A stretch of 64,000 nucleotides of DNA from Hyphomicrobiales bacterium. Lineage in GTDB: Bacteria > Pseudomonadota > Alphaproteobacteria > Rhizobiales > Beijerinckiaceae. The notes beneath the pieces are model-generated. The model searched no databases. It saw only the letters and a program-made list of their open reading frames with translations, and was not told the DNA's origin. Position numbers and translations under genes: made by a program. This document shows, piece after piece, positions 1 through 18,720 of the stretch. The DNA lies in NCBI GenBank assembly GCA_003963405.1, contig RXIY01000064.1:62001-126000 (forward strand). The letters run 5' to 3'. Position 1 is the first letter of the stretch. Every line of letters begins with the position of its first letter.

Positions 1-376
1 CGAAAGCCTGGATGACGCGCAATTGCCCCGTGAGATTGGTCTCGACCTGACGCTCGAAATCCGCGATCGGCAGATGCAGCAGCGGCCCCGGCACGGCGAC
101 GCCGGCATTGTTGACGAGGCCAAAGAGCGTCGCGCCGGAGAGCCATTGCCCGACCTCGCGCGCGGCGCGGGCGATGGCCTCGCCGTCGGTCACGTCGAAG
201 AGCAGGGCCGCGAAATTTTGTGGCCCGAAACGGGCCGTGAGCCGCTCGGCGTCCGCGTCTTTGCGCACCGAGCCGAAGACGAAAAAGCCCTTCTCGACCA
301 GCAGCGCAACGCAGGCCTCGCCGATCCCCGTCGAGGCGCCGGTGACGACGACCGCGCGCTTTTGCTCACCCCCCAT
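1..376 (-). CDS. SDR-family oxidoreductase, N-terminal part (runs off left edge)
   Basis: Only the first 125 codons are inside the window. The protein opens with a Rossmann-fold dinucleotide-binding segment: the glycine motif TGASTGIG is at residues 12-19 and NNAG at 89-92, both diagnostic of classical short-chain dehydrogenases/reductases. The catalytic Ser/Tyr-x-x-x-Lys part lies outside, so substrate and coenzyme choice cannot be read. The ATG at 374-376 lies upstream of the stop of the preceding thiE-amidase gene, giving an 11-nt overlap. This makes it the probable last-read member of the thiamine operon by translational coupling. A role in thiamine synthesis is not implied by the sequence. 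Confidence 0.85.
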   Translation of the reverse strand, partial: MGGEQKRAVVVTGASTGIGEACVALLVEKGFFVFGSVRKDADAERLTARFGPQNFAALLFDVTDGEAIARAAREVGQWLSGATLFGLVNNAGVAVPGPLLHLPIADFERQVETNLTGQLRVIQAF

Positions 377-1784
377 GCCCGGCTCCCGACAGATCGAGAA
401 GACGGGCCAGCGCGTCGAGGGTGGAGGCGTCGGCGCGGCCGTCGACGCGCGCGCGGCGGAAGTGACGCTGAAAGGCCGAAACGGCGGCTGCGGTCTCCTC
501 GTCATAGACGCCGGTTTCCGCCGTCTTGTAGCCGAAGGCGGCGAGCCGCCGCTGCACCTGCGAGACGGCGGGGCCGGCCATGTCGAGTTCGAGCGCCCCA
601 TCCGCGTCCGCGTCCGGCGCGGGCGCCGCGACGTCGAGACCCACGCCCGCCGCGGCGAGCGCGTCCCAGGGAAAGAATTCGCCGGGGTCGATCTTGCGGC
701 GCGGCGCAATGTCGGAATGGGCGAGAACGCGCTGTGGGGGGATGCCGCGGCGCGCGCAAATGTCCCGGCACAGCGCGACGAGCGCCTCGATCTGCGCGGC
801 CGGATAGGGGTGCGGGTCGATATGGCCGGGATGGACGATTTCGACGCCGATCGAGGCGGAATTCATGTCGGTTTCGCCCGCCCAGAAACTCACGCCCGCG
901 TGCCAGGCCCGGCGCGCCTCGGGCACGAGCTGCAGGACGCGCCCATCCTCCTCGACGACGTAATGCGCGGAGACTTCCTGGATGGGGGAGCACAGAAGCT
1001 CGAGCGCGCCCTCCGCGCTCGGCATGCCGGTGTAATGCAGGACGAGCGCCGAAACGGGGCGCAGCCGCGGGCCATGGTTGGGAGAGGGCAGAACGCTCGC
1101 GCCCGCGTGATCGGGCGGGAAGGGATCGACCAGTTCGCCCGCCTCGCGCCAGGGCGCGGTGGCCGCGATCCATTCCACCGTGCGCGATTCGGGATCGGGG
1201 GCGCGCAGAATATCCGTCACCACGCAGGCGCTGTCGGCGCCCGAGGCGAGAGCGAGGCAGGCGCGGCCCGGCGTCAACCCGCCGATGGCGACGAGCGGAA
1301 CTTCGCCCGCGCGCTTCTTCCAGTCGGCGAGCCGGTCGAGCCCCTGCGGCGCGAAGGCCATCTGTTTGAGCAGCGTCGGCCAGACCGGCCCGAGCGCGAC
1401 ATAATCCGGCGCGAGCGCGAGGGCGCGCTCGAGCTCGGCGTCGTCATGCGTCGAGACGCCGAACCGCAGGCCGTGGCGGCGCAGCACGGCAATATCGGCC
1501 GTGTCGAGGTCGCTCTGCCCGAGATGGACGAAATCGCAGCCGAGTTCGATCGCGAGCCGCCAGTAATCATTGACGACGAGCTGCGCCCCCGCCGCCCGGC
1601 ACAGATCGCGGGCGCGCGCGATCTCCGCGCGAAGCTCGTCCTCGGGACGATCCTTCACGCGCAGCTGCACGAGCTTGACGCCCAGCGGCAACAGACGCGT
1701 CAGCCAGTCGGAATGATCGACGATGAGATAGAAGGGATCGAGGCTCCAGGCGGTCAAAGGCGGCTCCTTGTCGGGGCAAGCCAT
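366..1784 (-). CDS. thiE: ThiE-type thiamine phosphate synthase fused to zinc N-acetylmuramoyl-L-alanine amidase
   Basis: A single 472-residue frame carries two unrelated enzymes. Residues 15-205 look like thiamine phosphate synthase, which joins HMP-PP to the thiazole phosphate: QLRVK at 40-44, ND at 72-73, HLGQSDL at 87-93, STH at 111-113 and AIGG at 166-169. Residues 220-375 are an AmpD/AmiD-type amidase, cleaving the lactyl-Ala bond of muropeptides, with predicted zinc ligands H250, H356 and D366, catalytic E315 and K364. The H-to-D spacing of ten matches AmpD. Residues 400-465 resemble a PG_binding_1 domain. Each family normally stands alone. No stop codon or strong ribosome site is visible at the junction (residues 206-222), although an in-frame GTG at V203 could give a separate amidase. 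There is no signal peptide, so both activities would be cytosolic, which suits muropeptide recycling. The gene lies 25 nt after thiG. Confidence 0.85.
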   Translation of the reverse strand: MACPDKEPPLTAWSLDPFYLIVDHSDWLTRLLPLGVKLVQLRVKDRPEDELRAEIARARDLCRAAGAQLVVNDYWRLAIELGCDFVHLGQSDLDTADIAVLRRHGLRFGVSTHDDAELERALALAPDYVALGPVWPTLLKQMAFAPQGLDRLADWKKRAGEVPLVAIGGLTPGRACLALASGADSACVVTDILRAPDPESRTVEWIAATAPWREAGELVDPFPPDHAGASVLPSPNHGPRLRPVSALVLHYTGMPSAEGALELLCSPIQEVSAHYVVEEDGRVLQLVPEARRAWHAGVSFWAGETDMNSASIGVEIVHPGHIDPHPYPAAQIEALVALCRDICARRGIPPQRVLAHSDIAPRRKIDPGEFFPWDALAAAGVGLDVAAPAPDADADGALELDMAGPAVSQVQRRLAAFGYKTAETGVYDEETAAAVSAFQRHFRRARVDGRADASTLDALARLLDLSGAGHGG

Positions 1785-1809: not shown

Positions 1810-2610
1810 TCACGCCACGTCGCCGAAAGGCCGGCCGAGCACGGGCGTCGAGGGCTCCGCCATGTCGCGGGGCGTCATGGGCCTGGAGAGGAAAGCGAGG
1901 CGCCCCGCCTGCGTCGCCAGGCCGAAGGCCCGCGCCATGCCGACGGGATCGCCCGCGCGCGACACCGCCGTGTTGAGCAACACCGCGTCATAGCCCATTT
2001 CCATGACCGTGGCGGCGTGGGAGGGCGCGCCGAGCCCGGCGTCGACGATGAGCGGAACGCCGGGAAAATGCGCCCGCAGCGCCCGCAGCGCGAAGGCGTT
2101 GTTGACGCCGCGCCCCGAGCCGATGGGCGCGGCCCAGGGCATGAGCAGGTCGCAGCCCGCCTGCAACAGCTTCTCGGCGACAACGAGATCGTCGGTCGTA
2201 TAGGGAAAGACCCTGAACCCATCCGCGACGAGCGCCCGCGCCGCCTCGACGAGGCCGAAAACGTCCGGCTGGAGCGTATCCTCCTCGCCGATGACTTCGA
2301 GCTTGATCCAGTCCGTCTCGAACACCTCGCGCGCCATCTGCGCCGTGGCGATCGCCTCCCGCGCCGTGCGGCAGCCCGCCGTATTGGGCAGAACCCGCAC
2401 GCCGACCTCGCGAATGAGGCTCCAGAAGCTCTCGCCGGCGCGCGAGCCGCCCGCCTCGCGGCGCAGCGAGACGGTGACGATCTCGCAGGCCGAGGCGCGC
2501 ACCGCCTCGGCGAGGATCGCGGGCGAAGGATAGCGCGCCGTGCCGAGCAGGAGCCGCGACCGCAGCGCCACGCCATAGAGGATCAGGGGGTCGGCCGACT
2601 CCATGGGCAA
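1810..2610 (-). CDS. thiG: Thiazole synthase ThiG
   Basis: ThiG condenses 1-deoxy-D-xylulose 5-phosphate, the glycine-derived imine and ThiS-thiocarboxylate to form the thiazole phosphate of thiamine. The 266-residue protein is of normal length. It carries the Schiff-base lysine K103 in WIKLEVIGE, the PNTAGC motif near residue 75, and the phosphate-binding [10 protein letters not shown] segment near residue 190. It starts 5 nt after the thiS stop, and its imine supplier ThiO and sulfur carrier ThiS are encoded just upstream, so the three form the glycine-oxidase type of thiazole module. Control is presumably by the upstream TPP riboswitch. Confidence 0.97.
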
Positions 2611-2615
2611 AGCTC

Positions 2616-2813
2616 TCAGCCGCCCTGCCGGGGCGTGACGATCTCGACGGCGTCGCCTTCCTGCAAGGGCGTGCTGTCCCGGTCCTTGTCGCGCACGAAC
2701 TCCTGATTCAGGGCCGTGCCGACCTTCTGGTCGTCATAGCCCAATTCGCGCAGCAGCGCCTGGAGCGTGGTGGCCGTGACCTCACGCGGGCGCCCGTTCA
2801 CCTGAATCCGCAT
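2616..2813 (-). CDS. thiS: Sulfur carrier protein ThiS
   Basis: This small beta-grasp protein (65 residues from the chosen start) carries sulfur as a C-terminal thiocarboxylate to ThiG. The required Gly-Gly terminus is present (PRQGG-stop), and the length matches known ThiS proteins. Two adjacent ATG codons at 2814-2816 and 2811-2813 could each serve; the second, giving MRIQVNG, fits the family best. The open frame extends further upstream, but that part lies inside thiO in another frame and is not ThiS-like. The gene overlaps the end of thiO by 32 nt, a sign of translational coupling. Confidence 0.93.
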
Positions 2814-3795
2814 CATCCATGACCTCCGGAAAATAGGCTCCGCCGAGCACGACCTCGGCGGCGCGGCGCGCCAGCGCCGGCGCGAGCAGGAAACCATGCC
2901 GGTAGAGCCCATTCATATAGATCGTCCGGCCGCGCCGGATAAGCCTCGGCAGATTGTCGGGGAAGGCCGGACGCACGTCCGAGCCCGTCTCGACGATCTC
3001 CGCCTCGGCGAAGGCCGGATGGATGGCGAAGGCCGAATTGACGAGCTCGACCACCGAGCGCGCCGTCACCCGCGCGCGCTCCTCATTCTCGATCATGGTC
3101 GCGCCGATCATGTAGAGACCCTCGCCCCTCGGCACGACATAGACCGGGCGGCGCGGATGCAGCATGCGCACGGGGCGGGACAGCGCAATCTCCTCGCTGC
3201 GCAGGATCAGCATCTCGCCCTTGACGCCCCTGAGCCGCGCGAGGTCGTCGCGCGCGGCGAAGCCCCGGCAATCGACGGTCCAGTCGGCGCGGCTCGTCAG
3301 GTTTTCGGCCTCGACGCCGAAGCGCATGTCGACGTTTGGCGCTGCGGCGAGCGCCGCGGCCAGCGCCGCGATGGCCGCCCGCGGATCGAGATGCGCCTCT
3401 TGGGGAAAGTAGAGGGCCTGATCGAATCGGCCGGAAAGATCGGGCTCGAGGCCCGCGACGGAGTCGGCGTCGAGCCGTTCGAAGTGCGCCGTGCGGCGGG
3501 CGAAATCGGCAAGCTCCGCGCGCTCGCGCGGCGCGGCGACGACGAGACTGCCGGCGACCGTCGCGACCGGGACCTCGCGCGCCCAGAAGTCGAGCGCCTC
3601 CTCGCCCAGCCGCGCGACGACGGGCTCGGCGCTCTCCAATTCGCACCAGGGCGCGATCATGCCGCCGGCAAAGCGCGAGCAGCCCTGCCCCGGCGCCTGC
3701 TGGCGCTCGACGAGTTCGACCGCGACGCCGCGGCGCGCGAGCGCGAAGGCCGCGCAGAGCCCCGCGACCCCGGCCCCGATCACCCGCGCGCGCAT
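2782..3795 (-). CDS. thiO: FAD-dependent glycine oxidase ThiO
   Basis: ThiO oxidises glycine to the imine needed for thiazole formation, the aerobic alternative to ThiH. The 337-residue protein begins with the dinucleotide-binding motif GAGVAG (about residues 7-12) followed by the acidic residue of the second strand, E33 in VERQQ. It has the DAO-family RFAGGMIAP segment near residue 45. It is the first gene after the TPP riboswitch, whose 3' end is about 25 nt from the start codon, so ligand binding could mask the ribosome site. ThiS and ThiG follow with overlap or minimal spacing. Confidence 0.93.
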   Translation of the reverse strand: MRARVIGAGVAGLCAAFALARRGVAVELVERQQAPGQGCSRFAGGMIAPWCELESAEPVVARLGEEALDFWAREVPVATVAGSLVVAAPRERAELADFARRTAHFERLDADSVAGLEPDLSGRFDQALYFPQEAHLDPRAAIAALAAALAAAPNVDMRFGVEAENLTSRADWTVDCRGFAARDDLARLRGVKGEMLILRSEEIALSRPVRMLHPRRPVYVVPRGEGLYMIGATMIENEERARVTARSVVELVNSAFAIHPAFAEAEIVETGSDVRPAFPDNLPRLIRRGRTIYMNGLYRHGFLLAPALARRAAEVVLGGAYFPEVMDDADSGERAPA

Positions 3796-3819
3796 GGCCC
3801 GCGTCCCGATTGTGAAAAG

Positions 3820-3962
3820 CTGATCACCATCCCTCCGCCAGCATCGAAACTGGATCAGGTTCGAAGGGTCGCCGCGCCCGGCGCCTCGAGAAACCTCCAG
3901 ACGCCCCCGCAGCCTCTCAGCCCCGTGGCGGCGCGCGTGCGCCGCCGGGCGGGGCTCCCCCG
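3820..3962 (-). promoter_or_regulatory. TPP riboswitch (THI element)
   Basis: On the minus strand the conserved CTGAGA core (complement of 3915-3922), the GACCCTTCGAACCTGATC block (complement of about 3855-3872) and the closing GGAGGGATGGTGATC are all present in the right order. These are the hallmark sequences of the thiamine-pyrophosphate aptamer. It ends about 25 nt before thiO. Translational control through the ribosome-binding site is the likely mode, since no terminator with a U-tract follows it. Confidence 0.95.
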
Positions 3963-3971
3963 GCGAGGCGG

Positions 3972-18450: not shown

Positions 18451-18465
18451 TGACGTGTGGACTTC

Positions 18466-18663
18466 CTCGCGGGAGAGACCGGCGTCAGCGCGCCGGCGCC
18501 GAAGGCGAAACCGCCCCGGAAACGCTCAGGCAAAAGGACCGCGTGAAGTAAATGACTCTGGAAAGCGGCGCGGCGCCTTGGCGCTTCGCCCACCGAAGGG
18601 CGTAACCCGCAGGCCTCCAAGGCTGCGCGGGGAAATCTCTCAGGTCACCGGACAGAGGGGGCG
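18466..18663 (+). promoter_or_regulatory. Tandem glycine riboswitch
   Basis: Two aptamer-like units follow each other. Unit 1 has GCGGGAGAGACC (18469-18480), CGCCGAAGGCG, CTCAGGCAAAAGGACC and the closing CTCTGGAAAG near 18553-18562. Unit 2 has CACCGAAGGGCGTAA near 18590, CTCTCAGGTCACCGGACAGAGG (split across 18637-18658) and its closing helix. These are the conserved glycine-riboswitch blocks. It lies directly upstream of gcvT, where in other bacteria glycine binding switches the cleavage system on. The expression platform (18664-18720) holds the ribosome site GGAGAG at 18709-18714. Confidence 0.93.
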
Positions 18664-18720
18664 CGTGGGGAGCGGGAAGTCCGCAAGCTGCGCTTGACGC
18701 CCAACGCCGGAGAGTCTCTC

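Follow-up and report, generated by a model that had tools for sequence, protein, structure and literature searches.

In most members of the genus Methylocystis, thiamine phosphate synthase (ThiE) is encoded in one reading frame with a zinc amidase that fits the AmiR type and with a peptidoglycan-binding domain; this fusion is genuine, combines two known families in one gene and is specific to the lineage. We consider it probable that the gene specifies one cytosolic chain with two independent enzymes, that it originated in a single rearrangement, and that its amidase came passively under a TPP-riboswitch operon. The gene lies at the beginning of the window, the whole 64,000-nucleotide stretch of DNA that was analysed (contig RXIY01000064.1, positions 62,001 to 126,000), and is composed as follows.

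366..1757, minus strand: likely coding sequence of the thiE::amiR-type fusion gene, with a TTG start at 1757; the longest open reading frame runs from the ATG at 1784
1170..1742, minus strand: ThiE (thiamine phosphate synthase) domain, residues 15-205 of the 472-aa frame (Pfam, NCBIfam and 1g4t match)
1089..1169, minus strand: junction, residues 206-232, consisting of a native-like ThiE tail (ATAPWR), a short linker and a native-like amidase head
678..1061, minus strand: Amidase_2 zinc amidase domain, residues 242-369 (H250, E315, H356, K364, D366)
408..575, minus strand: PG_binding_1 domain, residues 404-459 (Pfam)

One uninterrupted frame carries three domains

The open reading frame at 366-1784 of the minus strand comprises 472 aa with 0 internal stops. 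Its TTG at 1757, which is residue 10 and would give a coding sequence of 463 aa, is likely the thiE start rather than the ATG at 1784; the Shine-Dalgarno pairing was −7.7 kcal/mol at the TTG versus −5.5 at the ATG, and a start codon was aligned with this TTG in 23 of 32 fused loci. The Pfam domains TMP-TENI (residues 24-192, 156.4 bits, cut-off 27), Amidase_2 (residues 242-369, 137.3 bits, cut-off 26) and PG_binding_1 (residues 404-459, 59.6 bits, cut-off 23) were all detected above their cut-offs in this single frame, which confirmed the in-frame fusion of ThiE, amidase and peptidoglycan-binding domain described in a first-pass annotation of this DNA. In a structure of moderate confidence predicted from 20 input sequences (mean pLDDT 74.5, below 50 at residues 134-147, 239-256 and 359-368), a helix at residues 198-214 reaches the linker, and the arrangement and packing of the domains are not clear from this model.

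Sequence features of the ThiE and amidase halves

The ThiE half passed the NCBIfam thiE equivalog NF000734 (residues 14-213, 316 bits, cut-off 252) as well as TIGR00693 (149.9 bits, cut-off 145.1), and matched Bacillus subtilis ThiE (1g4t) with an E-value of 1.6e-24. The motifs QLRxK, ND, HLGQxD, STH, GP..PT.LK and IGG, which we take to be the ThiE core motifs with known roles, were invariant in 30 fused proteins, and the region that bears them aligns with 1g4t. Among the NCBIfam models listed in the search, none was a ThiE-amidase model. The ThiE of the fusion is the only canonical ThiE found in its own genome. A ThiE-like paralogue was also located there (G000:C47:8005-8496, L053), scoring 52.6 bits and thus over the Pfam TMP-TENI cut-off; it is divergent, and the usual ThiE motifs were missing by eye.

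In the amidase half, the five predicted residues H250, E315, H356, K364 and D366 were all intact, as the first-pass annotation had read them, being invariant in the 30 aligned fused proteins and lining up with those of AmiD/AmpDh2; by AmpD/AmiD work, they are presumably zinc ligands and catalytic residues. The AmpD/AmiD-type label given earlier needs correction as regards AmpD proper: the AmpD equivalog NF008758 failed (104.2 bits, cut-off 143), and the amidase was therefore named AmiR-type. Its architecture, Amidase_2 followed by a C-terminal PG_binding_1, is that of Caulobacter AmiR, a demonstrated recycling amidase that removes stem peptides from muropeptides (PMC13046382); the Agrobacterium AmpD orthologue likewise has a recycling role (PMC9790009). 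In the free relatives that occur within the genus, the protein begins no more than about 17 residues before SPNHG, and such short heads leave little room for a signal peptide. In the fused chain, the amidase domain is internal, and an obvious export signal was not seen in the sequence. In the order of its domains, and in that no export signal is apparent, the amidase would resemble the AmiR type, and a cytosolic place is predicted for it.

As to activity, the N-terminal ThiE would join HMP-PP and thiazole phosphate to give thiamine phosphate, and the C-terminal AmiR-type amidase would serve recycling by releasing the stem peptides of (anhydro)muropeptides taken up by the cell. The own genome also encodes AnmK and two GH3 proteins, of which one is NagZ-like in size. 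Because the fusion holds the only Amidase_2 as well as the only canonical ThiE found in this genome, the cell probably still depends on both functions, and selection acting on the two halves separately would then suffice to keep the fusion.

The fusion was found throughout most of Methylocystis

The whole fusion was found in 33 of 39 Methylocystis genomes, the own genome and the same-species genome G101 included, and a stop at the junction in none of them; in four genus matches listed with stops inside, the stop lay at one end of the match and never at the junction. Methylocystis rosea SV97 (L069) and M. silviterrae FS (L064), both culturable, are among the strains with the fusion. The fused proteins diverge down to 67% identity (30 aligned). 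Thus, the supposition that close relatives might all carry separate thiE and amidase genes did not hold. These genomes also bear on a sequencing or assembly artefact, that is, a stop or frameshift missed near position 1150. No supporting evidence for it was found, in an assembly that consists of 122 contigs; all 472 codons of the window's frame are open, in agreement with the first-pass annotation, and G101 carries the whole frame, nothing missed near 1150, with an identity rounded to 100% (1057.8 vs 1063.9 bits). A full-length frame was furthermore present in 31 further genomes of the genus. Since 33 of the 39 genomes, the same-species one among them, carry the frame, the fusion is not a sequencing error, and the artefact was rejected as having practically no chance of being the explanation.

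Three genus members that lack the fusion, G007, G025 and G033 (KS32), hold both genes at separate loci. In G034 (bog_906), the amidase is free and thiE is cut by contig ends, and in G028 (90% complete), a ThiE match was absent and other amidases only were found, so that this genome is left unplaced. In G017 (metagenome bin X3_MetaBAT.1), 37 nt are missing in the linker (L031:4526-4560, and at the same place in L074); the deletion puts ThiE and the amidase in separate frames, with an ATG remaining from which the amidase could start. As G017 is nested in the fused clade, the case looks like either a natural re-fission or an assembly error in the metagenome bin.

Among 63 relatives from outside the genus, taken from the top of a list ordered by E-value, none matched both halves. 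The fusion was found in none of the 358 non-genus genomes of a family sample, in two genomes of an order sample (397 genomes), both within the genus, and in the own genome alone in a class sample (385 genomes). These three samples overlap one another, and mostly four candidates were scored per genome under strict thresholds, so that a strongly diverged fusion, or one with a long linker, could have escaped detection. Among plasmids, 0 of 776 matching records had a place covering 80% of the fusion protein. The earlier statement that the two families are normally separate is borne out by these samples, in which fusions were seen in Methylocystis and none outside it. Searches at the level of titles and abstracts found no literature on a ThiE-amidase fusion.

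One candidate outside the genus, G997, in which the amidase match reaches back to residue 174, was rejected, its ThiE being on another contig. In G060, an amidase gene and a ThiE-like gene lie ~2.4 kb apart in reverse order. A separate case was noticed in Methylosinus sp. Sm6 (L078:3001-4575, NZ_JAINDZ010000021.1), where thiE is open in frame into trpA; this frame has 525 codons, carries TMP-TENI and Trp_syntA and retains an ATG at the likely own start of trpA, and it is perhaps another loss of the thiE stop, in one strain.

The fusion closes the thi genes of a TPP-riboswitch operon

The operon runs in the order TPP riboswitch, thiO, thiS, thiG, fusion and SDR-like gene, and its remaining parts are located in the window as follows.

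3812..3971, minus strand: TPP riboswitch aptamer upstream of thiO
2782..3795, minus strand: thiO, FAD-dependent oxidoreductase (Pfam DAO), named from its family and its place in the operon
2616..2813, minus strand: thiS (Pfam ThiS), probably starting at the ATG at 2813; the listed open reading frame starts at 2912
1810..2610, minus strand: thiG, thiazole synthase (Pfam ThiG)
1..376, minus strand: 5′ part, within the window, of a presumably short-chain dehydrogenase-like (SDR) gene, named from its translation; its likely ATG overlaps the fusion stop by 11 nt

The RF00059 match in the window (E-value 1.4e-5) aligned with model positions 1-105, contained the CUGAGA and GAACCUGAUCC cores and ended 16 nt before the thiO ATG. 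Its score of 37.3 bits is below the Rfam gathering score of 54.3, and a gathering-level Rfam scan therefore misses it. RF00059 matches were found in 9 of 9 related loci searched (47.5-62.2 bits, all E-values below 1e-5), and the cut-off was passed in four of the nine, namely one of six fused and three of three unfused loci. The fusion is thus, as annotated at first, the last thi gene of a TPP-riboswitch operon, with a full-length aptamer before thiO, though one below the Rfam cut-off.

Two fused loci show an additional gene in this region. In Methylocystis BC.3.87, an opposite-strand gene that we take to be phage tail sheath-like lies between thiG and the fusion (L055:1826-2938), and in Methylocystis sp. 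B8, a same-strand gene, presumably phytanoyl-CoA dioxygenase-like, occupies this place (L065:1930-2955). Elsewhere in the window, an ordinary-looking glycine riboswitch (18460-18551, 68.1 bits) is located ahead of genes at 18694 and 20263, which from their translations we assume to be of the glycine-cleavage type.

A rearrangement most likely brought the amidase behind thiE

In unfused kin, thiE follows thiG and closes a thiOSGE operon. The free amidase adjoins the SDR gene, away from thi, in six of these kin (G025, KS32, three Methylosinus and FeB_33); in G007 and bog_906, the stretch retrieved with the free amidase showed no adjoining SDR gene, and L059, whose SDR match is fragmented, was left out of the comparison. 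Because the unfused kin hold the genes at separate loci, a rearrangement most likely transferred the amidase-SDR block to a place directly behind thiE. The first-pass annotation had considered a merger of two adjacent genes by loss of a stop codon; with the genes apart in unfused kin, an ancestral thiE-amidase neighbourhood followed by simple stop loss is unsupported, and it is improbable that the two lay side by side in the ancestor. The free amidase lies behind moeA in G025 and KS32, where fabA follows thiE. In the own genome, moeA is on another contig than the fusion and its next frame is not an amidase, and fabA is away from the fusion in the own genome, G010 and G024; these moeA and fabA positions do not reveal the type of rearrangement.

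The free ThiE of KS32 has the C-terminus ATAEWRR and its free amidase starts with MSFVPDYKSARVVPSPNHG, and the junction in the window reads ATAPWREAGELVDPFPPDHAGASVLPSPNHG; native ThiE tails and amidase heads map onto the junction. R213 and F222 of the junction also occur in unfused KS32, and P211 is common to both fused clades. We propose a single origin of the fusion, in a common ancestor of most Methylocystis: a rearrangement would have joined the amidase-SDR pair in frame to the end of thiE, with which thiOSGE closes. In this event, thiE would have lost its stop and the amidase its start, whereas the ThiE tail and amidase head would have been kept nearly whole.

In a concatenated thiO-thiS-thiG-thiE-amidase protein tree of 44 rows, two of which (F_L009 and F_L017) were under half filled, the fused rows together with G017 formed one clade (100/99). 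The ThiE-only tree placed two fused clades apart (93/77 and 87/87) with three label changes, one of them G017, and in the amidase-only tree the two fused clades joined at 80/70. As support from single genes is weaker and the ThiE-only tree sets the fused clades apart, a single origin rests on the concatenation, the gene order and the junction. Two independent fusions of the same genes in two Methylocystis clades, perhaps since the fusion was favoured, would account for the separation of the fused clades in the ThiE-only tree and for their linkers, which differ in sequence and by three residues in length. However, except for insertions in L005 and L028, the two clades agree in the order thiOSGE-amidase-SDR, their junctions have P211 in common, and the concatenated tree gives one clade, and we regard two fusions as quite unlikely.

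Linker conservation and internal starts

The junction and its internal start codons were compared in 32 of the 33 fused genomes, the same-species G101 being left out, and codons in 30 loci. In the two clades, uncorrected pN/pS was 0.40 and 0.24 for the linker (residues 206-232) and 0.70 and 0.62 for the spacer between the amidase and peptidoglycan-binding domains, which indicates that the linker is under purifying selection, as expected of a translated, constrained sequence. A single product is predicted from this codon pattern and from the following survey of start codons. Across the 32 fused loci, no conserved internal start with a ribosome site was found. The sole internal start candidate in the window is GTG V203, from which the first-pass annotation had thought a free amidase might still be made; its Shine-Dalgarno pairing was +0.1, in agreement with that annotation's reading that no strong internal ribosome site is present, and a GTG occurred at this position in 4 of 32 loci. 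A free amidase from V203 is therefore unlikely, and this start was rejected.

The fusion might nevertheless be a convenience at the transcript level: internal initiation might still yield the amidase on its own, or the linker might be cleaved post-translationally. Some ATG, GTG or TTG was present between the EW motif of ThiE and SPNHG in 12 of 32 junctions, and five of 32 loci had a candidate pairing at −5 kcal/mol or better: L002 (TTG, −10.3), L008 (ATG, −6.8), L003 (GTG, −6.6 and −5.1), and L006 and L010 (GTG, −6.5 each). These strong candidates lie at scattered places, a GTG being at one common place in three of the five loci. Most frequent among the in-frame candidates was a TTG within ThiE, present at the aligned place in 23 of 32 loci; in 19 of these 23 it lacked pairing (+0.3 or +0.4). 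Against separate production also stand the absence of any candidate from 20 of 32 junctions and, over a wider stretch, from 4 of 32 loci, the value of V203 in the window, and the purifying selection on the linker, which internal initiation alone would not need. We consider a separately made or released amidase rather unlikely.

Thiamine-dependent control of the amidase

With one chain and two independent enzymes as the preferred reading, a side effect of the fusion would be that the amidase and the overlapping SDR gene are read from the TPP-riboswitch operon, and an ample supply of thiamine should lower the amount of amidase. Such thiamine-dependent control of recycling is plausible from the gene order; in two fused genomes (L055 and L065), a gene lies between thiG and the fusion. 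An adaptive link would go further, in that thiamine status would be meant to govern muropeptide recycling, or the domains would affect each other's activity. The retention of the fusion down to 67% identity (30 proteins), the conserved linker and the riboswitch match in 6 of 6 fused loci searched (one over the cut-off) are consistent with such a link. Yet the gene would be kept even if selection acted on either domain by itself, an intervening gene is present in the two fused genomes just mentioned, and the genus has at least three members, G007, G025 and G033, that lack the fusion; moreover, we know of no metabolite shared by the ThiE and amidase pathways, which also counts against the link. 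An adaptive purpose thus appears to have a rather low probability.

Beyond the passive placement that we favour, the TPP riboswitch might set the rate of peptidoglycan recycling, with the fusion kept since this coupling, or a physical effect of ThiE oligomers on the amidase, is useful; we hold this to be conceivable, if on balance unlikely. If it were true, plentiful thiamine would repress ThiE-AmiR, and muropeptides would build up in the cytosol. The gene represents a fusion of two unrelated pathways for which the unfused states, the residues of the junction and a possible re-fission (G017) can all be observed. It provides a clean test case of whether a chance fusion can subject a housekeeping process such as cell-wall recycling to a riboswitch that senses a vitamin, and of whether the coupling matters to the cell. 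Furthermore, the recycling amidase in these methanotrophs may hide behind the name thiamine phosphate synthase.

Comparison with known systems

The thiamin phosphate synthase ThiE of B. subtilis (1g4t/2tps) matches most of the ThiE domain, but is a stand-alone enzyme, whereas the ThiE of Methylocystis is joined to an amidase. ThiE is likewise one domain of a composite in the yeast-type bifunctional enzyme (3nl2), in the ThiE-kinase (PRK09517) and in the Nudix-ThiE (PRK08999), and most known fusion partners of ThiE serve thiamine metabolism. For the amidase half, AmiD and AmpDh2 (2bh7 and 4bj4; 123 and 159 bits, over both domains) are the closest solved relatives. AmiD and AmpDh2 are envelope proteins, whereas no obvious export signal was seen in the amidase of the window. 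Caulobacter AmiR is alike in the order of its domains; it is a free protein whose operon also encodes a transporter and a regulator (PMC13046382), whereas the Methylocystis amidase is the C-terminal part of ThiE.
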